From the NCBI GenBank assembly GCA_023213235.1, contig CP096137.1, forward strand, positions 1,437,587-1,501,586: DNA of 64,000 nt. Reading direction: 5' to 3'. The position numbers and the translations under genes were made by a program. The stretch comes from Elusimicrobiota bacterium (GTDB lineage Bacteria; Elusimicrobiota; Elusimicrobia; UBA1565; UBA9628). The notes beneath the pieces are model-generated. The model did not search any database and was not told the DNA's origin. It saw only the letters and a list, made by a program, of their open reading frames with translations. Below, piece after piece: positions 2,681 through 46,203 of this stretch. How positions within the stretch are numbered: position 1 is the stretch's first letter; each line of letters starts with the position of its first letter.

Positions 2681-5370
2681 GCCGCGTCGAGCGCCGCCCG
2701 CACGCGGGCCGCGAGATCCTCGGCCGTGAACGGCTTGGGCAGGATGTCGGTCGTGTCGTCGAGTATGCACATGCCTTCGAACGTGTCGTCGGTGTAGCCG
2801 GACACGAAGAGCACGGGCAGGCCGGGGCGCTCCGCGCCGGCCTCGCGCGCGAGGTCCCAGCCGCTCATCACCGGCATGACCATGTCGGTCATCAGCAGCT
2901 CGACCTTCGCTCCCGCGGGGGAGCGTAACAGCGCGAGCCCTTGCGCCCCGTCGGCCGCCGCGAGGACCTCATAACCCAAAGAGCGGAGGATGCGGGCCGC
3001 CAGCCGGCGCACCGGCTCCTCGTCTTCCACGATGAGGACCGTCTCCCCGCCCTTGGCCGCGCTCCGCCGCGGCGAGGGCGCATCGCGGTCCGGGGCCGCC
3101 TCGACGCAGGGCAGCAGGATGCGGAACGTCGTGCCGGCGTTCTCGCGGCTCACGCACCGGATCTCGCCGCCGCTCTGCTTGACGACGCCGTAGACGGTGG
3201 CCAGGCCGAGCCCCGTCCCCTTGCCCTTCTCTTTGGTGGTGTAGAACGGCTCGAAGAGGTGGCTCTTGACCTCCGGCGTCATCCCCGTGCCCGTGTCCGC
3301 CACGCTCAAGACGACGTAGCGGCCCGCGGGCACGCCCTCGCGCCGCGCCTGCGCGGCGTCGAGCGAGGCGGCCTCGGTGCGGATCGTGATGCGGCCGCCC
3401 TTCGGCATCGCGTCCCGGGCGTTGACGACCAGATTCATCAGGAGCTGCTCGAGCTGTCCGGGATCGGCCTTCAGCGACGCGTCCGCCGCGCCGGGCTCGA
3501 TCCGGAGCTCGACGTGCTCGCCGATGATGCGCCCGAGCATCTTGGACAGGCCGGCGATCACCTCGTCGAGGGAGAGAATCCGGGGCGAGGTCACCTGGCG
3601 GCGGGAGAAGGCCAGGAGCTGCTGCGTCAGGTTCGCCGCGCGCAAGCCGGACTGGCGGATCTCCTCGACGTCGTCGCGCAGCGGGCTGTCCTTCGGCAGC
3701 GCCGCGATCGTCATCTCGGAAAGGCCCAGGATCGCGGTGAGGATGTTGTTGAAGTCGTGCGCCACGCCGCCGGCCAGCCGGCCCATGGCCTCCATCTTCT
3801 GCGCCTGCCGCAGCATGCTCTCCGTCTCGGCGAGGCGGCGCGCCCCTTCCACCTTGTCGGTGATGTCCTTGACGATGCCGAGGAGTTTGGAGCGGCCGTC
3901 GGCCTTGTCGACGACGAGCTCCGCGCGCGTGGTGACCCAGCGCTGGACGCCGTCCGGGCGGATGATGCGGTGCTCGCAGTTGAACGAGCCGCGCTCTCCG
4001 ATCGCGTGGGCCCGGGAGGAGGCGACGAGGGCGCGATCGTCCGGATGGACGAGCTCCATGAAGTCGGAGGCGGCGAGTCGCTTGTCCGGGGGCACCCCCA
4101 GGATGCGCCGGCACTCCTTGGACCAGACCATGTCCTCGCCCTCGTCGAGCGGGTTGATCCAGCTGCCGATGTTGGCCACCTCCTGTGCCTTCTCGAGGAA
4201 CTCCTGGCTGCGCAGGAGGGCGGCCTCGGCCAGAATCTCCTTCGTGACGTCCTGCGCCACGCCCGTGAGCTGCTGGACGACGTCGGCCTCGTCTTTCACG
4301 GGGAAAGCCCGGTCGCGGATCCAACGGATTTCGCCGTCGGGCCGCTTGATCCGGTAGGTCACGTCGTAGGCGCCGGCGATCTGCCGCGGGTGCGCCGCGA
4401 GGACCCTCGCGCGGTCCTCCGGGACGATCGCCTCGATCCAATTCCTGGGATCCCGGTAGAGGCTCTCGCAGGTCCGCCCCCAGATCGACTCATAGGCGGG
4501 GCTGACGTAGACCATCGTCTTCTGCTCGACGTCGGTCATCCAGAAGACCTGGCTGATGCTCTCCGCCATCCGCTTGAAGCGGCTGTTCGAGTCCTCGACC
4601 AGCCGCCGGGCCACCACGCGGTCGGTCACGTCCTGGCACGTGCCGACGGCGACGGTCCCGCCGTCCCGGATATGCCAGCGCTCCTCGAGCACCTTCAGCC
4701 GGCCGTCGCGGAGGACGATGCGGTGCTCGATCGCGTGCCGCCCCGGGACGCCGCGGGAGGCCAGGAACGCCGCGTCGACGCGTTCGCGGTCCTCCGGGTG
4801 AACGAGCGCGAGGAAGGCCGCGTGCGTAGGCTGGAAGGCGGCCGCGTCGGTCTCGAAGATGCGATGCGTTTCGTCGGACCAGAGCACGTTCATGGTGTCC
4901 AGGTCCGTCTCCCAGCTGCCGACCTTGGCGACGGACTGCGCCTCGACGAGGCGCGCGCGCTCGCGCGCGAGGTGCCCCGCCGACAGCTGACGCTCGATGG
5001 CGTGGCGGATGACGCGGGAGACGGCCTCCGCCGCGGGCTCGCCCTTGACGAGATAGTCCTGGGCGCCCTCCTGGACCGCGCGGACGCCCGTGTCCTCCCC
5101 GTCGAGCCCGGTGAGGATGACGACCGGAACCGCGGGGAAGGCCGCGCGCAGCCGCAGGAAGGTGTCGATGCCCCGCGAGTCCGGCAAGGTCAGGTCGAGC
5201 AGGACCGCGTCATGCGGCGAGGCCTTGAGCGCGGCGAGGGCCTCGTCGAGGCGGGCGGCGCGCGTGACGGCGAAACGGGTGAGCTTCGACTGGGACAGAG
5301 TCTCCTGGATCAGGCGCGCGTCGCCCGGATTGTCCTCGACGAGGAGCAGCGCGACGTGCTGGGGGCTCAT
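2677..5370 (-). CDS. Hybrid histidine kinase, REC-PAS-PAS-PAS-HisKA-HATPase-REC
   Basis: An 897-residue cytoplasmic sensor with no membrane segment. Order: receiver domain (1-120, Asp in AVLLDLTLP), three PAS domains (about 150-255, 265-385, 390-510), HisKA (H-box GGVAHDFNN near 535), HATPase (NARDAM, GKGTGLGLATVYG) and a second receiver (about 775-895, Asp in LLMTDMVMP). The N-terminal receiver suggests it is switched by another kinase and relays the phosphate internally. It starts 11 bases downstream of the response-regulator stop at 5381, so the two probably share an mRNA with the kinase gene at 5824-6921. Signals are unknown. Confidence 0.93.
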   Translation of the reverse strand: MSPQHVALLLVEDNPGDARLIQETLSQSKLTRFAVTRAARLDEALAALKASPHDAVLLDLTLPDSRGIDTFLRLRAAFPAVPVVILTGLDGEDTGVRAVQEGAQDYLVKGEPAAEAVSRVIRHAIERQLSAGHLARERARLVEAQSVAKVGSWETDLDTMNVLWSDETHRIFETDAAAFQPTHAAFLALVHPEDRERVDAAFLASRGVPGRHAIEHRIVLRDGRLKVLEERWHIRDGGTVAVGTCQDVTDRVVARRLVEDSNSRFKRMAESISQVFWMTDVEQKTMVYVSPAYESIWGRTCESLYRDPRNWIEAIVPEDRARVLAAHPRQIAGAYDVTYRIKRPDGEIRWIRDRAFPVKDEADVVQQLTGVAQDVTKEILAEAALLRSQEFLEKAQEVANIGSWINPLDEGEDMVWSKECRRILGVPPDKRLAASDFMELVHPDDRALVASSRAHAIGERGSFNCEHRIIRPDGVQRWVTTRAELVVDKADGRSKLLGIVKDITDKVEGARRLAETESMLRQAQKMEAMGRLAGGVAHDFNNILTAILGLSEMTIAALPKDSPLRDDVEEIRQSGLRAANLTQQLLAFSRRQVTSPRILSLDEVIAGLSKMLGRIIGEHVELRIEPGAADASLKADPGQLEQLLMNLVVNARDAMPKGGRITIRTEAASLDAAQARREGVPAGRYVVLSVADTGTGMTPEVKSHLFEPFYTTKEKGKGTGLGLATVYGVVKQSGGEIRCVSRENAGTTFRILLPCVEAAPDRDAPSPRRSAAKGGETVLIVEDEEPVRRLAARILRSLGYEVLAAADGAQGLALLRSPAGAKVELLMTDMVMPVMSGWDLAREAGAERPGLPVLFVSGYTDDTFEGMCILDDTTDILPKPFTAEDLAARVRAALDAA

Positions 5371-36300: not shown

Positions 36301-36526
36301 AGGTGGTTGACTAGCACCATCTCGTAGGCGGGCTTGTATGTTTTTGACAGCGCCAGCATCCCATCGGTGAGGTCCCAGGCGATGTTGCCTTCTCTGGGGG
36401 ATACACCAACGCAGGCCGACGCCCATCGAGACGCTCTGGAGCCTCGCCCTCCTGGATGAACCAGTGGGCAGTGGGTTCCGCAAACGGAGTGTTAAGTATC
36501 GGCTCGCCTACTTCGTAGCCACTCAT
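33385..36526 (-). CDS. res: Type III restriction enzyme, Res subunit, two frameshifts
   Basis: About 1,047 residues. The helicase part has Walker A (CKMATGSGKTTVMAM), a DEAH-type box (VMNDEAHHAYR), VDLSATPFFLGRVG and the motif VI region (CEQVVGRGLRRASY). The C-terminal nuclease is PD-(D/E)xK type, with PDF in YLPDFIIRLKG and ExK in HLILETKGFDD. This second half is reached only if one base is added at 33588-33591. The N-terminus (MSGYEVGEPILNTPFAEPTA) joins at 36396-36400 in the same way. It needs the Mod subunit, encoded upstream with an ATGA overlap, to cleave DNA between two inversely oriented sites. Confidence 0.92.
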
Positions 36527-39201
36527 TTCGCGGCCTTGAGGTCCTTAACGACGAGAAGTTCGTTGCCACGGTCATCGATGACCTTGACGGCGATTTTCTG
36601 ATGTTCGCCCGCCGCGAAGGGCGCGCTCGTGGTCCCAGCGAGATGTTCCCAGACCTCTGCGGAGTATTCGGATTTCAGCGCCTTTTTGAGGTTGTCCCAC
36701 GCACTCGTCCTCGGGAAGAACGCCTGTGAAACGTGAAAGCAGAGGTCGTTGTAGTTGGTATCCAGGAACCAGGCTGGCACGTCATCACCACCGCGATGCC
36801 CCACATCCATACTTACCGGGTCAAACACATCGAATCCTAGAAGCTCGACCTGGTGCAACGTCTCCTTGCCATCTTTTTTGGAGTGGACTTTAATCTCAGG
36901 GAGCCCACAGACGCTAAATATCTGGCTACTCCTCATGTTTTTCAGAAGGTCGCCCATCATCAGGTCCGGGGTAGCCTGGATATATATGGCCGGGATTCCG
37001 ACGATGCTTTCGCACTTCTCGATAAGCACTCGCGCGTTGGCCTGAATGGCGAAGCCGATGACGTAGAGTGTTGCATACCCTTTAACATTTGCTTCTTTCG
37101 CCGCCTCAAAAATGAGCTTCTCGCTCACCGCGCCATTTTCGGGCCCAAAAACAAGCGCGACGGGCTTATCTTTTCCATTGACGATTACGCCTTCTGCCGA
37201 GAGTGACAGAGTCTTTGCCGGGAGTCGGAGGTTTTTTAGCGTTACTGACTTCCTTCCATCGAGGTGCAGCACAGGACTCTTCCGCAAGACCTCTAACATC
37301 CTATCGACGAATGAGCCCTGCTCCGTCGCCGTGGATGTCTTAGAAGACGCCGACTCCGACTCTTCCCAATCAAGAGGGGTCGGGATTGTCGCCTCGACAG
37401 TGAACGGCCCGCTAATACGAATCACATCGGCTGACTCCTCGGGGCGGTCGAAAAGAACCTCCTCGTCCGGAAGCTCATTATTGGCGATACTCTTGAGCGT
37501 GACATGCGGGATAATCCCGCCCACTTCCGAGCCCTTTCGATTTTGGCGGCGCTTATACACCAGGCCGCCAGCCGGGCCTCTCGATTCGTCCCGAAGCTGA
37601 TAGAACGGGAAGGTCGCAGTGAGTAGGCGCTGACGAGCAAGCGCGAGCGGAACCCTGCTGGTATCAACCGTCATCCATCTGCGGCCCCAACTTTCGGCGA
37701 CGTAGGCGGTCGTCCCGCTTCCGCAAGTCGGGTCAAGGACCAGGTCTCCCGGGTCAGTTGCCATCAACAAACATCGTTGAATGACCTTAGTTGTCGTCTG
37801 GACCACGTAGAGTTGCGGGTCATTGAAGCCACCGGACTGCGTGTCAGTCCAGATGTTCGAGAGTCTCTCTGCCGCGAAATCATCCCAGTAGAGTTTGTAG
37901 GCAAGCCCTTTCCCAGACCTCAAAATTCTGCCCTTCGCGGCGAGCGCCTTCATTCCGTCAATGCTCGTCTTCCAGTGAGAGTTGGCCTGCGGTCGGAACG
38001 ATTCGCCGTCAAACTTGAATGTCTGGTCAGAGGAAGCAGCACCAGCGGAGGTAATGGGGCCGTAGCGAAAAATCTTTGCGCCCGCCGGAAGCGGCACTTC
38101 GCGCCGTCGTTCTTCGGGGGTCATGGAGCGCAATGTCCCGTCGGGTAATTCCAGGTGGATGTAGTTGGGGTCGCTCGGTTCAGGATTGGGGTGCAAGACG
38201 AAGGCAGGCCGAAATTTCAAGAGCGACTTATCCTTGGCATACCACAAAATGGTGTCGTAGATGGCCGAAAGGTGGGTGGGACTCTGGCCGCCAGTCTTCT
38301 GAAAAACGATTGAGGAAACAAAGTTCTCTTCTCCAAAGACATCGTCAAGGAGTTCTCGGACATGATGAGCGTTCTCATCGCCGATTTGGACGAACATGCT
38401 TCCGCTCTCGGAGAGCAATTCCCGCGACAGCAATAGCCTGTCTCGAAGGTAGGTAAGGTAGGAGTGTGGTCCAAGCTCCCAAGTGTCACGATACGCCTGA
38501 ATGACCTCGGGCTCACGAGTCATATCTTCATCGTCGCCATGCTTTACTTCCCGCGCGCGAACGAACGGCTGGAAGTTGCTACCGAACTTCACACCGTAAG
38601 GCGGGTCCATGTAAATCATCTGAACCTGCCCACCAAGCCCCTCGTAGTGAATCAGAGAGTTCATCACTACTAACGAGTCCCCGAGCACCATGCGGTTGAC
38701 CCATTTATCGCGGTGCTCGTAGGACTTGAGCACCTGGTCCGCGATGGAGTGGCGCGGGTCGCCGAAGAGGTCGTCCATGAAATCTATCTGCTTGTCCGAG
38801 CGATGCCCCTTGATGGTCTCCAAGATGGCCTTGGTCGAGAGGCGCTCGTGGACGAATAACGGCAAGGTGGGCACGTCGAACGAGAGTCGCTCGGCCTTCC
38901 CGGCCCAGTTCAGGAAGGGCTTGCTGAGCCCCTTGAGCTTCGCGGCGGCGGCCTTGGCTCCTTCCAGGGTCTTCGCGTCGAGGACCTCTCGGATGGCCGC
39001 TTCACCTTCTTCACGGGCGGGGTTCTTAGAGTCGAAGTCGAGGGCCGGAGCGAGCGAAGAGTCGTAGCGGTAAGTCTTGGGGGCCTTCGTCTTCTTGAAC
39101 TGCGCCTGCGTGCCCACGTCAGGGCGCATGGGGCTATCCGCGTCAGGATGCCTGTAAGTCTCAGTCCGCGTGCTATCCGTGCTCTTCTTGCCTCGCGCCA
39201 T
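36523..39201 (-). CDS. mod: Type III DNA methyltransferase, Mod subunit
   Basis: An 892-residue adenine-N6 methyltransferase. Catalytic motif IV is MIYMDPPYGVKFG near residue 200. The AdoMet-binding motif I, LDPTCGSGTTAYVAE, lies further on near residue 480, so the order is that of beta-class enzymes. The long middle and C-terminal parts hold the target-recognition region. It methylates one strand of an asymmetric site and gives specificity to the Res subunit encoded immediately downstream. The unusually long C-terminus (about 300 residues after motif I) is typical of this Mod group. The gene is intact. Confidence 0.94.
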   Translation of the reverse strand: MARGKKSTDSTRTETYRHPDADSPMRPDVGTQAQFKKTKAPKTYRYDSSLAPALDFDSKNPAREEGEAAIREVLDAKTLEGAKAAAAKLKGLSKPFLNWAGKAERLSFDVPTLPLFVHERLSTKAILETIKGHRSDKQIDFMDDLFGDPRHSIADQVLKSYEHRDKWVNRMVLGDSLVVMNSLIHYEGLGGQVQMIYMDPPYGVKFGSNFQPFVRAREVKHGDDEDMTREPEVIQAYRDTWELGPHSYLTYLRDRLLLSRELLSESGSMFVQIGDENAHHVRELLDDVFGEENFVSSIVFQKTGGQSPTHLSAIYDTILWYAKDKSLLKFRPAFVLHPNPEPSDPNYIHLELPDGTLRSMTPEERRREVPLPAGAKIFRYGPITSAGAASSDQTFKFDGESFRPQANSHWKTSIDGMKALAAKGRILRSGKGLAYKLYWDDFAAERLSNIWTDTQSGGFNDPQLYVVQTTTKVIQRCLLMATDPGDLVLDPTCGSGTTAYVAESWGRRWMTVDTSRVPLALARQRLLTATFPFYQLRDESRGPAGGLVYKRRQNRKGSEVGGIIPHVTLKSIANNELPDEEVLFDRPEESADVIRISGPFTVEATIPTPLDWEESESASSKTSTATEQGSFVDRMLEVLRKSPVLHLDGRKSVTLKNLRLPAKTLSLSAEGVIVNGKDKPVALVFGPENGAVSEKLIFEAAKEANVKGYATLYVIGFAIQANARVLIEKCESIVGIPAIYIQATPDLMMGDLLKNMRSSQIFSVCGLPEIKVHSKKDGKETLHQVELLGFDVFDPVSMDVGHRGGDDVPAWFLDTNYNDLCFHVSQAFFPRTSAWDNLKKALKSEYSAEVWEHLAGTTSAPFAAGEHQKIAVKVIDDRGNELLVVKDLKAAK

Positions 39202-39321
39202 GCCGTTCGCTCCCTGCGACCCGCAAATAGTGGTGGCAGATTATTCCAAAAATTGGGTAGAGGGGCTACAAATTGTTCACGGGTAGGTCATGGAAGATAC
39301 ACCTGGTTAGCTAATCTGTGT

Positions 39322-39327
39322 TATACT
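39322..39327 (+). promoter_or_regulatory. Extended -10 promoter for the TIR operon
   Basis: TGTTATACT carries the TGn extension before TATACT, and no clear -35 is seen. A leader of about 140 bases with a terminator hairpin separates it from the TIR gene. Confidence 0.6.
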
Positions 39328-39404
39328 ACCGCTCGTCGGGGATTGGTCAGTAGCGTCCTACTCCAAACCCCGACCCGGCACTGGCATTGACCGGACGTTT
39401 CGGC

Positions 39405-39434
39405 CCCCACCGTCGGATGCGGTGGGGATTTTTT
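39405..39434 (+). terminator. Leader attenuator upstream of the TIR gene
   Basis: CCCCACCG / CGGTGGGG with a 7-base loop, followed by ATTTTTT, is a good intrinsic terminator. It lies inside the 5' leader, not after a gene, so it may limit transcription into the TIR-ATPase operon. The earlier part of the leader (from 39335) can form a competing CGGGG/CCCCG stem. A second GC hairpin covers the region just before the ribosome-binding site. Confidence 0.65.
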
Positions 39435-39468
39435 ATGCCCGGGGCGGAACCCCGGGCGGGAGAACGAG

Positions 39469-39945
39469 ATGGCCTACAAGATTTTCGTCAGTCACAGCAT
39501 GGCGCATGAGGACCGCGACCTGCTCACGAGCTTCGTCTCGTTACTCAAAACCAAGGGCATCGACTCCTACCTCGCCGAGCGAGACTGGCAGCCCGGCACG
39601 CCTCTCCCCGAGAAAATTAAGACGGCCATCCGCACCTCCGACTGCATGGTCGCCTTCTTGACTAAGGCGGGCGACCATTCTCGGTGGGTTCACCAGGAAA
39701 TCGGATTCGCGGAGGCCATCCCTCTCAAGAGAATCCCCATCGTCGAGAAGGGTGTCGATACTGCTGGTTTCGACCTCGGACGCGAGTATGTCTCACTCGA
39801 CAGGGACGCGCCCGTGGACACGCTCCATAACCTGACCACGTTCTTGGACGGTCTCAAGGCGAAGAAGGAGCAGACTGAGGGCATCTTTGTCGTCGGCGCG
39901 TTGTTGCTGGGGCTTGTCGCCCTCTCCGGTAGCGCGAAAAACTAG
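39469..39945 (+). CDS. TIR-domain protein with C-terminal membrane segment
   Basis: A 158-residue protein. Residues 3-115 form a TIR domain: the strand-A motif YKIFVSHSMAHEDRD, the second-helix region RDWQPGTPLPEKIKTAI, SDCMVAFLTKAG and the motif WVHQEIGFAEA, with the putative catalytic Glu of bacterial TIR NAD-consuming enzymes. A single hydrophobic segment (FVVG ALLLGLVALSG) is at the C-terminus, so it may sit at the membrane. TIR proteins in phage defence cleave NAD or make signal molecules. It is 6 bases from the ATPase gene and shares its transcript. No ThsA-like partner is present. Confidence 0.85.
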   Translation: MAYKIFVSHSMAHEDRDLLTSFVSLLKTKGIDSYLAERDWQPGTPLPEKIKTAIRTSDCMVAFLTKAGDHSRWVHQEIGFAEAIPLKRIPIVEKGVDTAGFDLGREYVSLDRDAPVDTLHNLTTFLDGLKAKKEQTEGIFVVGALLLGLVALSGSAKN

Positions 39946-39951
39946 ACCACC

Positions 39952-42678
39952 ATGCCTACTGCTCCACAGCCTGCTGGCGAAGCTCCTAGAGACCCTAGCC
40001 AGGAAATTCTCCGCTTCGCCGAGGGACGTCCGGACTGGCAGCGTGACGCTCTGCGACGTCTCGCCGAACAGGGCGCACTGCGTGAGGAGGACCGTGCGGT
40101 GATGCTCGCCGCAGTAAAAGCCCTGCACGGCATCGGCGCGGCCCCTGCTGGGGGTCTGAGACCGCTTGGCGCTGAGCATCTCACGAGCACTTCGGCGGCT
40201 ACATCCCGGCTGGCTATCGAGAAGCTCACGGATGCACAGAACGTCAATATGCTCAAGCCCGGGGAGACTCTGGGCCTCTCCACGAACGGTCTCACGTTGA
40301 TTTACGGGGCCAACGGCAGCGGCAAGTCGGGCTACACGCGCATCTTCAAGAAAGCGTGTGCCGCCAGGACCGCCGAGGACATTCTCGCCAACGTATTCGA
40401 CCGCGATTACAAGACCAAGCCTCCGGCCACCGCGACATTTCACTTGTCGCTAACCGCCGCAGGGGTTGAGACCAAGAAGGAGGTCACGTGGGCCGCGAAT
40501 ACCGATTGCCCGCCCGAGCTGCGCCAGGTCAGAGTTTTCGACCGAAAGGCTGCGGCCATTTACGTGGAAGAAGAGGCGGCGCTGGCGTTCGTGCCGTTCA
40601 ACCTCGACCTCCTCGACAAGCTCAGCGACTTGTGTGAGCGTTTGAAGGCGACGTTGGCGGCAGAGATTGCGACTCTGGACACCGCGTATGGAGCATCTCA
40701 GAACGCAATTCCTGCCAGAGGAGACGCACAAACTATTGCCCGTAGCATCACCGCGTCGACCACGCCCGAAGCAATCGAGGGGATGTCGAAGTGGGAGCCC
40801 GCCGATGATGCCAAACTGGCGTCGGTCGCGGAGCTACTCGACAGCCCGGGCAAAGCCATCGCGGAAGTCCGGGCGCGGCGCACGCGGTGCGACGGCTTGC
40901 TCGCTCGAATCGCTCGCATCGAGAGCGCGCTGTCGCAGGAGAAGCTCGGACTGCTTGAGGAGCACTGCAAGCTCGCACGCGAGACGAAGCAGGCTGCGGA
41001 CGCGGCATCGCAGAAGTCCTTCTCGACAGACCCCAGCCTCCTTCCCGGCGTTGGTGGCGGCCCATGGAAGCAGCTCTGGGAGGCTGCGCGTAATTACTCC
41101 ACCCAGGCGTATCCCGGGATGGACTATCCCGTCGTCGCGGACTCCGGTGGCAAGGAGCCACAGTGTGTCCTCTGCCACCAGCCGCTGAGTGAGGACGCAT
41201 GTAAGCGCTTCCAGGGCTTCGAGGAGTTCGTGCGCGGAGACGTGGCGAACCGGGCGCGCGTCGCGGAATCAGCGCGGGCCGAAGCGGTGCGCGTCATTGA
41301 ACAGGTTTCGGCGGTGCTCAGCCCGGATGACCACGCCCTGCTGTCGGAGTTGCAGACTGATGCACCTGCGCTCGCGGCATCCATCGAGCCCTTCATCGCG
41401 GCTGCCGTCGCGCGGAAAGCTGCAATCATGGCCGCTGTGCCTTCTGGGAACTTCACCACTGTCCCTGCCGAGCCTGCGAAATGCTCGACCGCGCTCAAGG
41501 CTCACATCGACGCGCTGGATGTGAAGATGAAGGAGATTGAGAACTCCCTGACGCCCGAGAGAAAGGCGGCGCTCAAGCTCGAACAGACGGCGCTCATCAC
41601 GCGAAAGACCTTGGCTGAGCACAAGACGACGCTGCTTCGGCTCATCGAGAATCGCGCCGCCAAGAAGAAGCTGGACGATTGCATCAAGGAAGTCGCTGTC
41701 CGCGCGATTTCCGAGGCCAAGAAGAAGCTCAACCAGCTATTTGTCGACGACTTGTTCAAGAAAACGCTCCAGGAAGAACTGGACGCCGTGGGCGTGACGC
41801 GCAAGGTCACGCTGGACTTCGCTGTCTCCAAGGGTATCGCCTACCAGAAGGCAATCTTCGGTGACTCTGCTTTCCCGAACCTCGACCTGGTCTTGAGCGA
41901 GGGAGAACACCGCGCCGTCGCCATCGCCTGCTTCTTGGCAGAGGCGCGCATGCTCGGGGAGACCCAGCCCCTGGTCATCGACGACCCAGTCTCCTCGCTC
42001 GACCACATTCGCCGGGAACGCCTCACGCGCCGCATCATCGCGGAGGCCCGGAAGCGGCAGGTCGTGATTTTCACGCACGACATTGTCTTTTGGGCCGACG
42101 TTGGCCGCATCGCCGAGGAGAACCACGTCACTGTCACGCTGAGGGACATTCGACCCGAAGCTGGCCTGTGCGGAAAGGTCGGAGACGGCGAGACGCCTTG
42201 GGTCATCCTCCCCGTTGCCAACAAACTCCAGTATCTAGAGGGCACGCGCTTGCCCGAGCTGCGTGCACTCGATGCGAACTCGCAGACGTATGCCGACAGG
42301 ACGAAGGACGTTGGCGGCAAGCTGCGTGACACCTGGGAACAGCTCATCGAGGAGAACCTCTTTCAAGACACTCTAGGACGCCTGCGGCCCAACATCAAGT
42401 CGCAGAACTTGGACAAGGTGAAGGTCCTGGATGAGGACTGGGAACGCATCTATCACGGCATGACGCGCTGTTCCTTCTGGGCGCACTCGACCCCAGTGGC
42501 CGCAGGAACTCCGCCGCCCTCAGTGGACGACTTGAAGAAGGAAATCGACGAGATTCGCAACCTCATGACCAAGCTCAAGGCGGACGGTAATGCAACTCGC
42601 AAGGCGCGCGGTGAGCGTCTTTCCAACCCGGCGGTTCCTCCCGTCGCTCTTGGCGCGACTCCTCCGGCTGCCAGCTAG
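39952..42678 (+). CDS. Zinc-hook SMC-like ATPase, RloC/PrrC-like, with HEPN-type motif
   Basis: A 908-residue AAA_13-type protein. Walker A is YGANGSGKSGYTR (residues 118-130). Long coiled coils flank a CVLC zinc hook near residue 405, and the ABC-type signature region and Walker B (LVIDDPVSSLDHIRR) are near 675. The N-terminal WQRDALRRLAEQGALREED is a common feature of this family. Near residue 838 the phrase RCSFWAH fits the R-x(4-6)-H motif of HEPN ribonucleases. RloC and PrrC are zinc-hook or related ATPases that cut tRNA anticodon loops when restriction is inhibited. The next-door Type III system fits that role, which remains an inference. Confidence 0.8.
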   Translation: MPTAPQPAGEAPRDPSQEILRFAEGRPDWQRDALRRLAEQGALREEDRAVMLAAVKALHGIGAAPAGGLRPLGAEHLTSTSAATSRLAIEKLTDAQNVNMLKPGETLGLSTNGLTLIYGANGSGKSGYTRIFKKACAARTAEDILANVFDRDYKTKPPATATFHLSLTAAGVETKKEVTWAANTDCPPELRQVRVFDRKAAAIYVEEEAALAFVPFNLDLLDKLSDLCERLKATLAAEIATLDTAYGASQNAIPARGDAQTIARSITASTTPEAIEGMSKWEPADDAKLASVAELLDSPGKAIAEVRARRTRCDGLLARIARIESALSQEKLGLLEEHCKLARETKQAADAASQKSFSTDPSLLPGVGGGPWKQLWEAARNYSTQAYPGMDYPVVADSGGKEPQCVLCHQPLSEDACKRFQGFEEFVRGDVANRARVAESARAEAVRVIEQVSAVLSPDDHALLSELQTDAPALAASIEPFIAAAVARKAAIMAAVPSGNFTTVPAEPAKCSTALKAHIDALDVKMKEIENSLTPERKAALKLEQTALITRKTLAEHKTTLLRLIENRAAKKKLDDCIKEVAVRAISEAKKKLNQLFVDDLFKKTLQEELDAVGVTRKVTLDFAVSKGIAYQKAIFGDSAFPNLDLVLSEGEHRAVAIACFLAEARMLGETQPLVIDDPVSSLDHIRRERLTRRIIAEARKRQVVIFTHDIVFWADVGRIAEENHVTVTLRDIRPEAGLCGKVGDGETPWVILPVANKLQYLEGTRLPELRALDANSQTYADRTKDVGGKLRDTWEQLIEENLFQDTLGRLRPNIKSQNLDKVKVLDEDWERIYHGMTRCSFWAHSTPVAAGTPPPSVDDLKKEIDEIRNLMTKLKADGNATRKARGERLSNPAVPPVALGATPPAAS

Positions 42679-42684
42679 GGTTTC

Positions 42685-43281
42685 ATGTTCGACTTTCGCG
42701 GCGCTGTATATATCTTTGAGAATCCCGAAGTGCAGCGGGTGAAAGTTGGCACAACCTGGAACCCCATCGCGTCGCGGCTCGATGCTATTAACGACATGTG
42801 GCTGGGTCGGAAGGTCACTTGCCAGGTTTGTGCGGGTCGGTTGGTCAACTTGAGCGGTTATGTCCCTCAGCATGTCGTCAGCGGCAACCGTTGCCCCGGC
42901 GGCAACGCGCTGCCGTTGGAGAGGGATATTGCGGTCGCCGAGTCGCACCTAGCGAGCCTAGAAGGGCGTCATGGCGAGCTTTCTGGTGACGAGATGGGCT
43001 CAAACACCAGAAGAATCAAAACCCTCAAGAGGCGTATTGAACTGTATCGGGATTTCGTTAGGGCAGCAGGGTCGTGGAAATACAGGGTCGGGTTTTACAC
43101 GAAATCTGCTGGCGACGTTGAGTCGCGCGCGCATGCGATTCTGGCGGAGCGGCTGGACAAGCGGGCCCCATTTGGTGAGGTGTTTAGCTGCTCGGTAGCA
43201 GAAGCTGCGGAAGCGGTTGAATCGGCCCTCAACCAGTTGGGGTTGTCAGACTCAGCCAGGCGCGAAGACAAGCTGGCATAG
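42685..43281 (+). CDS. GIY-YIG-type (T5orf172-like) protein
   Basis: A 198-residue protein. The start GAVYIFENPEVQRVKVGTT, with NPIASRLDAIN next, matches the GIY-YIG fold of the T5 Orf172 / MUG113 group. It is interrupted by a cysteine-containing insert (TCQVCAGRL and SGNRCPGG) that could bind zinc. The C-terminal half resumes with GFYTKSAGDVESRAHAIL and GEVFSCSVAEA, as in the family. Members bind or cut DNA. It is 6 bases downstream of the ATPase gene, so it belongs to the same operon and may be a third part of the same defence unit. Confidence 0.7.
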   Translation: MFDFRGAVYIFENPEVQRVKVGTTWNPIASRLDAINDMWLGRKVTCQVCAGRLVNLSGYVPQHVVSGNRCPGGNALPLERDIAVAESHLASLEGRHGELSGDEMGSNTRRIKTLKRRIELYRDFVRAAGSWKYRVGFYTKSAGDVESRAHAILAERLDKRAPFGEVFSCSVAEAAEAVESALNQLGLSDSARREDKLA

Positions 43282-43295
43282 TATCGGTCTCAGAG

Positions 43296-43325
43296 GGACT
43301 CAGATGAGTCCAGCATGCTGGACTC
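43296..43325. repeat. Overlapping palindromes with the GAGTCCAGCATGCTGGACTC core
   Basis: A perfect 20-base palindrome (43306-43325) follows and overlaps a second inverted repeat, GGACTC-AGAT-GAGTCC (43296-43311). The 18-base core recurs at 50245-50262 and in a modified form at 50016-50055. It may be an operator, a recombination site or a partition site. Confidence 0.75.
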
Positions 43326-43356
43326 TGATTCCGAGAGCGCCGGGACGACGTCGCGT

Positions 43357-43362
43357 TATACT
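43357..43362 (+). promoter_or_regulatory. -10-like box at the head of the non-coding region
   Basis: TTATACT at 43356-43362, about 30 bases after the palindromes. If active, its product would span the whole 455-base non-coding region before the LAGLIDADG gene. Confidence 0.4.
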
Positions 43363-43565
43363 GCGCTCCGTCGAGAAAGCAGCAGTAGCCATACGAGCTA
43401 GAGTGCGCCGAAGCCGCGTTAAACGGACTCGCCTACTGCGGTGCGAAATCCCGGTCCCGGTTGCTTGCGAGGCCCGATGTCCGTAAACGAGGTCGCTGCG
43501 GTTGACCCCTAGGCGTTTCGGGGCTAAACTACTTGGGCCCGGGCGCAGCTTCGGGCATATTCTGT

Positions 43566-43571
43566 TATACC
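43566..43571 (+). promoter_or_regulatory. Extended -10-like box before the structured region
   Basis: TGTTATACC has the TGn extension before TATACC. It lies just upstream of the segment with the strongest base pairing. Confidence 0.4.
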
Positions 43572-43574
43572 GGA

Positions 43575-43817
43575 GAAATCAAAGAGACAAATTTTAGCTG
43601 ACGTTCGAGTTTAGGCACACTCCGAGTCGCGCCTGGGCGCGACTGAGCTTTGGGCGGAAGCCCGGAGGCACACTGCAAGCGGGGAAGATGTCGCTAGATA
43701 GCGGGACCGCAAGGTCTCGTGAAAGCGGCGGTTGGATTCTTCCTGGTTACTTGCAGTGGCTAGGAGTGGCTGGCCGCCGCCGTTGTTTTCGGTGGCGGTG
43801 AAAACTCCCGGCCACCG
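43575..43817 (+). ncRNA. Candidate structured RNA upstream of the homing endonuclease gene
   Basis: Several perfect complementary pairs suggest an RNA fold. A long-range helix pairs CACTGCAAG (43671-43679) with CTTGCAGTG (43750-43758). Inside it GGAAGA (43683-43688) pairs with TCTTCC (43738-43743) and encloses hairpins CGCTA/TAGCG (43692-43703) and GACC-GCAA-GGTC (43705-43716). Before it stands an 8-bp hairpin AGTCGCGC/GCGCGACT (43625-43644) and one with a GGAA loop near 43655. After it a GC-rich hairpin covers the gene start. The rest of the 43282-43817 gap holds no gene. A long leader, a riboregulator or an intron-like RNA are options; no known class is recognised. Confidence 0.5.
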
Positions 43818-44965
43818 ATGAGCGAAGAAGAAGCCTTAGCAGCCTGGCGAGACGTCTACAGCGGCAAGCGCGAGCGATTGCCTAATGGCTTTGGGCAGGT
43901 GCCGCTGGTCGCACCCGCGCCGTTGCCCTCCTGCGCTACGCTCTCAAGAAGCGCCTACCACAAGTTCTCCGGCTTCTCAAGCTCGATGGCGCAAGCCAGA
44001 CCTGCTTCCGCTCCCCAGCGGACTACCTCCTAGCCGCGCTTCCGCGACTTCGCCGTGATGATGTCCGAGATGCCCTCGAGCAATACGCAAAGAAACACCG
44101 CTACTTCGAGCGAATCGACACGGAGGAGAAAGCGTATTTGCTCGGCCTCTTGGCCACCGACGGAAACGTAAGCGGTGGCACCATCAGTCTCGCGCTCAAG
44201 GACCGCGACCGTGTTCTGCTTGAGCGTTTCGAGCGCGCCGTCGGGCTGAGGCCCTCGGCAATTCGCCCGATGGTGAAGGGCATGCTCCGAACGAGTATCA
44301 CCTCTGCTGAGATGGCCCGAGACCTCGCCCAGCACGGCGTTGTCCCGGGAAAGACCTGGACGCTCGACTGGCCCAAGGGCCTGCCAAAGCACCTTGAGCG
44401 GCACTACCTTCGCGGCGTCTTCGATGGCGACGGCGGGATTTCGGGGCGGCAGTGGAGCATCGTGAGCGCGAGCAAGCGCTTCATCCTGCGCACGAAGGCG
44501 CGTCTCGATGCAGTCGTGGGCAGAAAGCTGCCTGTAAATCGCGCAGGCCCCAGCAAGGCATCTTTCGTCGTTACTGGCGGGCTCAATGACTGGTACGCGC
44601 TCGACTGGTTCTACCAGGGCGCAACTATCTTCCTGCCTCGAAAACACCGACTCTATCGTGCTCTCGTGCCGAGAATCCGTCTCTTCCCGGCTGTCGTGCT
44701 CCGTCGCCGCCCCGGGAAGCGTCGACTCGGGCAGGATTCCCGTGGCCGCTTCGCGGCGAGCGCCTCGAAGTCGGATGTCGTGGTTTTTAATGGCGCAGTC
44801 CTGACGCTACGCTGCTCACACTGCCGTCGCGTATTCGACCGGGAGGCGTCGGCGGTCTCGCTGTCGAGCTACCAGTTCTGTCCCGCCTGCCGAGCTAAGC
44901 GCATCATCCAGCGCGCGATTCACACCCAGGGTTATTTCCAGCGCAGAGGAGCACAGCATGCCTAG
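43818..44965 (+). CDS. LAGLIDADG homing endonuclease, frameshifted
   Basis: About 382 residues. The two LAGLIDADG helices are YLLGLLATDGNV and YLRGVFDGDGGI, each ending in the catalytic acidic residue, so this is a two-motif monomeric enzyme. A helical N-terminal domain of about 100 residues precedes them and a CxxC...CxxC zinc finger (CSHC and CPAC) ends the protein. The start (MSEEEALAAWRDVYSGKRER) is in another frame; one extra C near 43920 joins VPLVAPA to VALLRYALKKRLPQVLRLLK. Whether it is a free-standing homing enzyme or a domesticated regulator is unclear. The gene follows a candidate structured RNA. Confidence 0.8.
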
Positions 44966-45188
44966 AGTGAAGCGCCGAGCGAAGCGAATCGGCAAGTCGT
45001 GGAATTTATATTTGCCTGGTGAGCTGGGGTGGATTCGAGAGCGAGCGGAGGTCGAAGCGCAGAGCCAGCGGCGGAGCGTGTCCGAAGTCGTCCTGCTCAT
45101 CCTCGAAGCGTATTTCAAGGCTAATCCCGTCACGAAGAGGCGGGCTCTCGAATTGCCTGCCTGGGTGACAGAGAAGGTGCCCGACTGA
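44958..45188 (+). CDS. Small ribbon-helix-helix-like protein
   Basis: A 76-residue basic protein. The pattern KRIGKSWNLYLPGELGWIRE, followed by QRRSVSEVVLLILEAYF, fits a beta strand and two helices as in Arc/CopG-type DNA-binding proteins. Its ATG overlaps the end of the endonuclease gene by 8 bases, so it is coupled to it. It could be a repressor of the island's promoters or palindromes. Confidence 0.6.
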   Translation: MPRVKRRAKRIGKSWNLYLPGELGWIRERAEVEAQSQRRSVSEVVLLILEAYFKANPVTKRRALELPAWVTEKVPD

Positions 45189-45226
45189 TGCCCTCCCAAG
45201 CCCTGGCGGTCTCACAAAACGTCTGT

Positions 45227-45232
45227 TACACT
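45227..45232 (+). promoter_or_regulatory. Extended -10 promoter for the RepA-like operon
   Basis: TGTTACACT carries the TGn extension. A 140-base leader with a terminator hairpin follows, the same plan as upstream of the TIR gene. Confidence 0.6.
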
Positions 45233-45311
45233 ATGTGCAACAGGCGAGGCTTTACTCCGACTTGGTCGCGGCCTAGTTTCAACAGCGACCTAAAAGGGAA
45301 ACCATCCGTCT

Positions 45312-45338
45312 CGGGTCTCCCAGACCCGGGACTTTTTA
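45312..45338 (+). terminator. Leader attenuator upstream of the RepA-like gene
   Basis: CGGGTCT / AGACCCG with a CCC loop, followed by GGACTTTTT. It stands inside the 5' leader, 35 bases before the ATG at 45373. The next bases form a GC-rich stretch holding the ribosome-binding site (GGAGGAAA). Confidence 0.65.
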
Positions 45339-45372
45339 TTTCCTGGGAAGCCCGCCTGCCGGAGGAAACGGC

Positions 45373-46203
45373 ATGGCAATCATAGACGTAGGCGACCTGC
45401 TTCCGCGCGCCAACGACGCGGAGGAATCCAAGTGGCTCGTTGAAGGGCTCGTAGCCCGCTCCTCGCTTGGGCTCTGCGGGGCCAGTCCGAAAACGGGGAA
45501 AACATGGCTCGGGCTCCAGATGGCACTCGCAGTTTCTACCGGGACACCGTTCCTGGGACACTTCAAGACCTGCAAGTCTCGTGTCCTTTTCTGGGAGTGC
45601 GAGGATTCCGAAAAGCTCTTGGCCGAGCGAACAAGCGCCCTGATGCGTGGGCACGGCCTCTCCAGCCCGGAGCCTGGATACTTGCAATTCGCCGTGGAGC
45701 CCGCACGAATAGACACGGCAGACGGACTGCGCCGTCTGCGACAGGTCCTCGCTGAGACGAAGGCGGAGATTCTACTCCTAGACACGCTTAACCGCAGTCA
45801 CGGGCTCAACGAGAGTCTCCAGACGCACGCGAGTCAGCTAATCACCGCGTTTGATGGTCTGCGGCGGGAGTTCGGGGTCGCGGTGCTGGCCACTCATCAC
45901 GTTAGCAAGGCCGGGAGGAGCGGCCAGGGCGGCAAAGCGCTGCGTGGAAGCAGTGTCATCCATGCCGGGCTGGAGAACTCAATCTACATCTGGGCGACTG
46001 AGACTCCAGGAATCATCCGCGCAGAGCCCGAGTCGAAATACGGTGCGCCTGAGCCGTTCATCTACGAGCAGGTCTCAGGTGAGGGCTCTATGCGTCTTAC
46101 GCGCGTCGAAGACGCCTCACGGCTCGCGCCGTTTGTCACTAAGCGCACGAAGCGGCTTGAGCGCGAGCGCCGCAAGAAGCGAGCGCACGTGGGCGGGAGG
46201 TAG
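45373..46203 (+). CDS. RepA-like replicative helicase (AAA_25 type)
   Basis: A 276-residue RecA-fold ATPase. Walker A is GASPKTGKTWLGLQMA, Walker B is AEILLLDTLNRSHG and a sensor-like loop is VLATHHVSKAG. It resembles the plasmid RSF1010 RepA helicase and the AAA_25 proteins carried by integrative elements. It would unwind DNA during replication or maintenance of the island. The C-terminus is strongly basic (KRLERERRKKRAHVGGR). No primase is present. Confidence 0.8.
   Translation: MAIIDVGDLLPRANDAEESKWLVEGLVARSSLGLCGASPKTGKTWLGLQMALAVSTGTPFLGHFKTCKSRVLFWECEDSEKLLAERTSALMRGHGLSSPEPGYLQFAVEPARIDTADGLRRLRQVLAETKAEILLLDTLNRSHGLNESLQTHASQLITAFDGLRREFGVAVLATHHVSKAGRSGQGGKALRGSSVIHAGLENSIYIWATETPGIIRAEPESKYGAPEPFIYEQVSGEGSMRLTRVEDASRLAPFVTKRTKRLERERRKKRAHVGGR

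Follow-up and report, generated by a model that had tools for sequence, protein, structure and literature searches.

Why should a non-coding stretch in front of a LAGLIDADG endonuclease gene fold into an elaborate RNA, and does this RNA belong to the gene that follows it? The question was raised by contig CP096137.1 of an Elusimicrobiota bacterium, of which we analysed 64,000 nucleotides of the forward strand; this whole stretch is referred to as the window, and the features of the RNA described below all lie on its plus strand. A structured RNA had originally been predicted at 43575-43817, with a nesting of helices deemed unlikely to arise by chance. Folding energies agree with this view, as the minimum free energy of 43575-43820 was −115.7 kcal/mol compared to −91.3 ± 4.5 kcal/mol in 200 dinucleotide shuffles (z = −5.48), none of which was as good, and nearly all paired bases of the RNA had a base-pairing probability above 0.9. 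The predicted perfect helix of 9 bp was recovered (CACTGCAAG, 43671-43679, with CTTGCAGTG, 43750-43758), along with the second helix enclosed by it (43682-43688/43738-43744, extended by 43689-43695/43724-43730) and, inside the 9-bp helix, the GNRA-type hairpin P5 with a GCAA tetraloop (43701-43720). Two hairpins, P2 (43625-43644) and P3 (43648-43667), lie outside this helix, and one more was found at 43773-43799. From 43575 to the ATG at 43818 the sequence holds no convincing gene, in line with the non-coding character claimed for it, ARAGORN detected neither tRNA nor tmRNA genes in the window, and the promoter-like box expected in front of the RNA is present as TGTTATAC (43563-43570), a putative −10 element. 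While a structured element was thus correctly located, its boundaries were drawn slightly off and cut the element: the covarying 5′ strand, designated V, begins near 43592, and the 3′ hairpin finishes at 43817.

The RNA has no counterpart in Rfam 15. No match reached the gathering score in the window, and none covered the element on this strand at E values up to 10; four weak matches in 43200-45400 (E up to 10) all lay off the element. Likewise, no match over the RNA was obtained for 18 homologous loci (L107-L116; L183, L184, L187, L190-L194). Among the papers listed by full-text literature searches, none described a riboswitch or structured RNA of this kind from Elusimicrobiota or Endomicrobium, and the string Elusimicrob- is absent from the main text of PMC8040213. 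We regard the RNA family as undescribed, a novelty that rests mainly on Rfam 15 and the literature search, with the 2017 collection of 224 candidate RNAs outside the comparison. HEARO/OMEGA RNAs of IscB nucleases are structured, approximately 200 nt long and situated directly before an endonuclease gene. The same can be said of the window RNA, but only the window copy precedes a homing-type nuclease, Rfam gave no match, and neither IscB nor TnpB was found among the tested downstream proteins. The termite hindgut is a habitat of some Elusimicrobiota. From its metagenome, and from this habitat only, come two other structured RNA candidates, the Termite-flg and Termite-leu motifs (RF01729 and RF01730), and the passages on these motifs in PMC2864571 mention neither Elusimicrob- nor Endomicrob-. 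Cmscan yielded no match of either motif to the window or to the 18 homologous loci.

A covariance search seeded with the window RNA, as suggested with the original prediction, matched over the full length of the RNA in 10 of the 340 Elusimicrobiota genomes searched, namely the source genome and nine others. E values of this single-sequence model (R1) went down to 4e-8 per genome, and the ten other R1 copies have common motifs for which, taken as a whole, R1 could not have selected. A pattern built from these motifs and scanned over 84,980 species occurred in 17 stretches, 12 of which were also R1 matches and stem from ten Elusimicrobia MAGs and two assemblies labelled only ‘bacterium’ (YF2); the other five, from other groups, gave no R1 match. 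With a model of 12 sequences (R2) and a limit of E = 0.001, matches were found in at least 65 of the 340 Elusimicrobiota genomes, spread over 32 of 100 genera, a lower bound as few candidates were scored per genome. A model of 42 sequences (R3) detected one to three copies in 33 of 40 chosen genomes and none in the other seven (G007, G016 and G018 among them), so that congeners of carriers lack copies. As E values of R2 and R3 are circular for their own training copies, the independent evidence is provided by R1 and by hold-out copies. R3 found no copy in 250 genomes from the order of an Azonexaceae genome, in 249 genomes from the phylum of a Syntrophomonas genome or in five whole genomes containing chance pattern stretches; among mostly viral loci totalling about 600 kb, the window alone scored E below 1. 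The motif pattern had no match in IMG/VR, and blastn with the DNA of the window RNA gave no match in phages, only pieces with E of 0.3 or worse in plasmids and, apart from the window itself, only chance-like pieces in 235 genomes (E up to 10). As far as searched, the family is limited to one phylum, the Elusimicrobiota.

Paired segments that vary without compensation had been named at the outset as the sign of a wrong prediction; across 63 copies, they vary with compensation. When these copies were aligned to R3, 86.0% of 4100 cells held a standard pair, compared to 36-43% with partners slid by one to three columns, changes on both sides were seen in 69 of 74 pairs, and the covariation score was 0.604 as opposed to at most 0.108 in the slid versions. 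Hairpins P2, P3 and P5 were paired in 90.6%, 92.3% and 93.6% of the cells, and helix P4a (5′ strand at 43668-43679, including the 9-bp arm; 3′ strand at 43750-43760) in 99.4%. In P4a, both sides changed in 8 of 10 pairs, with all four Watson-Crick types at its inner positions. The short helix P1 (43618-43623 with 43763-43768) covaries, yet is paired in only 71% of the cells across the family. Positions that are near-invariant are concentrated at the base of P4a (GGC-A, GGUUA and GGCU) and ahead of P3 (GAGCU); in the window, the GTTA at 43746-43749 is the end of the GGTTA joint (43745-43749), identified by the consensus of one alignment and by invariant columns of two others. In well-aligned helices, 182 G.U cells were counted against 21 A.C cells, indicating that the folding molecule is RNA, and RNA of this strand. 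The alignment leans towards the structure because it was fitted to it, and the tests independent of it are the R1 search and a permutation test of strands. Model-based alignments were used since first MAFFT alignments misplaced the hairpin loops and the RNAalifold structure remained partial.

A few copies deserve mention for their arrangement. L186:4035-4170 and L168:2394-2579 lack the distal P4 arm (strand Y, P5, strand X and the GGUUA joint) and break at nearly the same place; the arm-less copy of L186 is still situated ahead of the same kind of gene as the copies in L163 and L165. Tandem copies, 73 nt apart, precede a response regulator gene (L189:3965-4168 and 4242-4451), and L168 carries its second copy (3995-4193) about 1.4 kb from the first on the same contig.

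Side-by-side reading of the copies first revealed that several of their strands can form overlapping, mutually exclusive helices, namely V:Y, Y:X, X:Z and Z:W. In the window, V (43592-43624) forms an interrupted helix with Y (−15.0 kcal/mol for the duplex with 43679-43699), while Y itself (43681-43696) can alternatively pair with X (43723-43745; −17.6 kcal/mol). Z (43761-43782) has the choice between X (−26.2 kcal/mol), giving a terminator-like helix, and W (43789-43817; −32.1 kcal/mol), which ends one base before the ATG at 43818. The U-tract TTGTTTT (43783-43789) follows immediately 3′ of Z, so that X:Z adjoins it in the manner of an intrinsic terminator; in L172, X and Z match perfectly over 12 bp as judged by eye. 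Such a U-tract was found 3′ of Z in 58 of 63 copies, compared to 403 of 1624 background windows (25%). Averaged over 39 of 42 copies (L183, L186 and L188 were left out), duplex energies were −16.4 kcal/mol for V:Y and −23.0 kcal/mol for X:Z versus −18.0 kcal/mol for Y:X and −17.8 kcal/mol for Z:W; the two compatible sets of helices are thus close in mean energy, as expected of a switch.

The fit of each strand to its partner within the same RNA was compared to the fit after swapping partners among RNAs in 20000 permutations, using 61 of the 63 copies; L186 and L168:2394-2579 were left out due to the deletion of their P4 arm. In the discovery set of 41 copies, none of the 20000 permutations was as good for any of the four helices. 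The same was true for V:Y, Y:X and X:Z in 20 hold-out copies fetched later, in which 167 of 20000 permutations equalled Z:W. Six control pairings were far from these values, though the lowest of them, V:Z (317/20000) and V:W (527/20000) in the discovery set, were slightly above chance. V:Y and X:Z were part of none of the models that gathered the copies, while Y:X was part of the search model. As the hold-out copies were found by a model containing Y:X and Z:W, only V:Y and X:Z are unbiased there. A looser duplex test gave a modest difference between native and permuted partners because its segments were overlong, and the defined segments were used instead. P4a can stay formed in both states and, judging from the order of the strands, may combine with V:Y and X:Z into a kissing-type pseudoknot.

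What, then, could such an RNA do? Computation reveals a family with a common structure, covarying competing helices, a U-tract and a position before same-strand genes. We consider it likely that the window RNA is a copy of an Elusimicrobiota-specific 5′ leader of about 200-225 nt, which would most probably control transcription by attenuation. Transcribed from its presumed promoter, the leader would have a constant core made up of hairpins P2, P3 and P5 and the strongly covarying helix P4a, whose GGC-A and GGUUA joints are near-invariant; within this core, four strands would compete for partners. If V:Y formed, X would be free to pair with Z, and X:Z together with the U-tract would act as an intrinsic terminator, leaving the gene off. 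If Y:X formed, Z would be free, polymerase would read through and Z:W would form behind the U-tract, with the gene on. We infer this assignment of on and off states from the helices. The balance would be tipped by a signal, be it a small molecule, a protein, an ion or temperature; given the near-invariant core, a ligand-binding pocket appears plausible, and the leader is perhaps a riboswitch.

Transcription-attenuating riboswitches are 5′ leaders on the strand of their gene, with exclusive terminator and antiterminator helices and a compact conserved core. The Elusimicrobiota RNA resembles them in its position and strand, in an antiterminator-like Y:X opposed to a terminator-like X:Z with U-tract, and in its conserved core. 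It differs in the presence of the covarying Z:W behind the U-tract, in being confined to one phylum as far as searched, in a ligand that is only presumed, and in downstream genes that belong to no common pathway, unlike those of most riboswitches. Diverse downstream genes fit a metabolite riboswitch of a single pathway poorly. Further points count against attenuation: the U-tract background of 25%, the V:Z and V:W controls slightly above chance, the two copies without Y, P5 and X, the few copies with no same-strand ORF nearby, and an extra terminator-like hairpin between RNA and gene in four copies. In the latter (L156, L157, L159 and L160), this second hairpin is conserved and reads CCCC-TACGGTGAAGTC-...-GGGG-TTTT, with a conserved loop GGTGAAGT.

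In 33 of the 39 copies with enough flanking sequence, an ORF of at least 100 aa on the strand of the RNA has its start −45 to +110 nt from the 3′ end of the RNA, whereas the mirror arrangement at the 5′ end, which served as control, was seen in 6 of 39; a random-position baseline of 42% at 100 aa is inflated as it counts starts inside genes, which is why the mirror control was used. A near same-strand ORF is missing in four of the 39 copies at 60 aa (L156, L166, L188 and L189b) and in six at 100 aa, the window included. Pfam analysis of 29 proteins encoded downstream of other copies yielded two CsgG-like proteins, two response regulators and single cases of sigma-70, PLD, HSDR_N, MmeI, methyltransferase, FGE-sulfatase, zinc ribbon, ankyrin, GT8 and UbiA; the remainder had no match above the cut-off. 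Directly upstream of the RNA in L168, L179 and L182, i.e. in three genomes, we observed same-strand ORFs of one family (MKALIPLEGIEQRIYLMRGHKVML...), which resembles ORF6N.

The gene behind the window copy (43818-44965) has the LAGLIDADG_3 domain expected of it, but its intactness is doubtful. The frame starting at 43818 (MSEEE; N-terminus MSEEEALAAWRDVYSGKRERLPNGFGQ) ends early, and the LAGLIDADG body is encoded in another frame, open from 43886 to the stop ending at 44965. Judging from the reading frames, the gene may be truly frameshifted, mis-assembled or equipped with a later start; the source genome is a single contig, 83.6% complete. No relatives of the N-terminal piece (43818-43910) were found among the collected loci. 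A partnership between RNA and LAGLIDADG gene, which the prediction had entertained, finds no support in the relatives: no LAGLIDADG family appeared among the 29 other downstream proteins, and R1 and R3 found the RNA in none of 80 viral LAGLIDADG loci (L007-L086), with blast and nhmmer also giving nothing. LAGLIDADG proteins related to that of the window by about 30-40% identity have no RNA in common, and a scan of genome contigs revealed no relative. The LAGLIDADG link of the window RNA is incidental; copies precede many kinds of genes, on the same strand and usually within about 110 nt.

Could the leader act on translation instead? In such a scheme, Z:W or a CCUCC near the 3′ end would mask the ribosome-binding site, and W of the window does reach the base before the ATG. 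GGAGG occurs within 90 nt upstream of the RNA in 23 of 42 copies (28-54 nt upstream), compared to 485 of 5360 background windows (9%), and several copies combine it with a 3′ CCUCC. At the same site the window has CCGGAG (43570-43575), here only GGAG, which by eye could pair with CTCCCGG at 43806-43812. ATG, GTG or TTG follows GGAGG at a distance of 3-11 nt in just 1 of 28 copies, as opposed to a shuffle expectation of 21%, which is in keeping with masking and carries no signal of a leader peptide; a leader-peptide attenuator was rejected on this ground. We nevertheless consider translational control unlikely, in view of the U-tract directly 3′ of Z in 58 of 63 copies and of the gene's own Shine-Dalgarno sequence, which in other copies lies well behind W.

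Another explanation is a small RNA acting on its own, in trans or by binding a protein, with an intrinsic terminator at the U-tract as its end and the gene as a mere neighbour. This would account for the U-tract, for a TANANT-like box at −130 to −20 in 37 of 62 copies (462 of 3431 background windows, 13%), for the additional terminator-like hairpin that separates RNA and gene in four copies and for the limit of three copies per genome. It would leave unexplained the strong bias in orientation and distance of the gene (33/39 versus 6/39) and the competing helices, for which a static RNA has no need. W covaries with Z from behind the U-tract, yet a terminated RNA would lack W. We hence regard a small RNA as rather improbable.

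Gain and loss of copies bring a further explanation into play, a mobile cassette in which the RNA, or the folded DNA strand, mobilises the adjacent gene with regulation being secondary. In genus g6, the RNA and an outer-membrane-protein-like gene lie between one gene and tRNA-Arg(UCU) in G031 and G040, while in G035 only about 90 nt separate these flanks, with neither RNA nor gene between them, showing that both are present or absent together at this site. In G023 and G038 the site is occupied by other inserts, which include a partial tRNA copy, and in G023 the RNA and the outer-membrane-protein-like gene are located on another contig. The inserts in L229 and L231, of about 1.3 and 0.9 kb, lie between two tRNA-Arg(UCU) genes, one a 5′ partial and the other complete, and this locus is an integration hot spot. 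A cassette would also account for the patchy distribution with absence from congeners and for cargo that varies by copy, and the window copy itself resides in an island with genes for TIR, DNA methylase, AAA and serine recombinase proteins. We did not call the g6 insert a mobile element since the site showed neither a recombinase nor a duplication or common end, and at the copies read in general we found no ends that are conserved, no duplicated target site and no recombinase associated with the RNA. Enrichment at contig ends was tried as a sign of mobility and is weak (8 of 40 copies, 4.3 expected; simulated p = 0.04). The competing helices by the U-tract point to transcription and the G.U bias fits RNA, so that mobilisation as the primary role strikes us as very unlikely.

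The idea of a degenerate group I intron, or of some other RNA that belongs with a LAGLIDADG endonuclease, is refuted for the family and has next to no chance in the window. A LAGLIDADG_3 gene does follow, and the pseudoknot type of P4a and X:Z may resemble P3/P7, though only in outline. The original prediction had called the group I core not evident; no Rfam family, group I included, matched the RNA at the gathering score or at E up to 10 (43200-45400), the 80 viral loci lack the RNA and its relatives precede other genes.

Returning to the attenuating leader, why should one RNA be placed before such unrelated genes? The targets are unusual in that they are single and unrelated genes, in many cases accessory ones, and in that close relatives lack the copies, which suggests a general signal rather than the metabolite of one pathway. 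Tentatively, and with less confidence than in attenuation as such, we propose a new riboswitch-like class of Elusimicrobiota that serves no single pathway but comes and goes with accessory genes, gating them by a relay of four strands (V:Y, Y:X, X:Z, Z:W) built about a kissing-type pseudoknot in response to one common cellular signal. Should this hold, a phylum that has been little studied and is for the most part uncultured would possess a class of RNA switch to itself, present in at least 65 of the 340 genomes searched, with structural evidence on par with that for accepted RNA families, and the control of newly acquired genes by their host would become a directly testable question. The conserved core and the ready-made terminator would make ligand searches and transcription assays straightforward.

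Two other parts of the window caught our attention. The non-coding stretch 45220-45345, located before an AAA_25 gene and not matched by R3, contains TGTTACACTAT as well as a GC-rich hairpin with TTTTTA behind it, and is possibly another leader or a terminator. Upstream of the RNA, 36523-42678 encodes an N6_N4_Mtase DNA methylase, a TIR domain protein and an AAA_13 ATPase and looks like a defence island.
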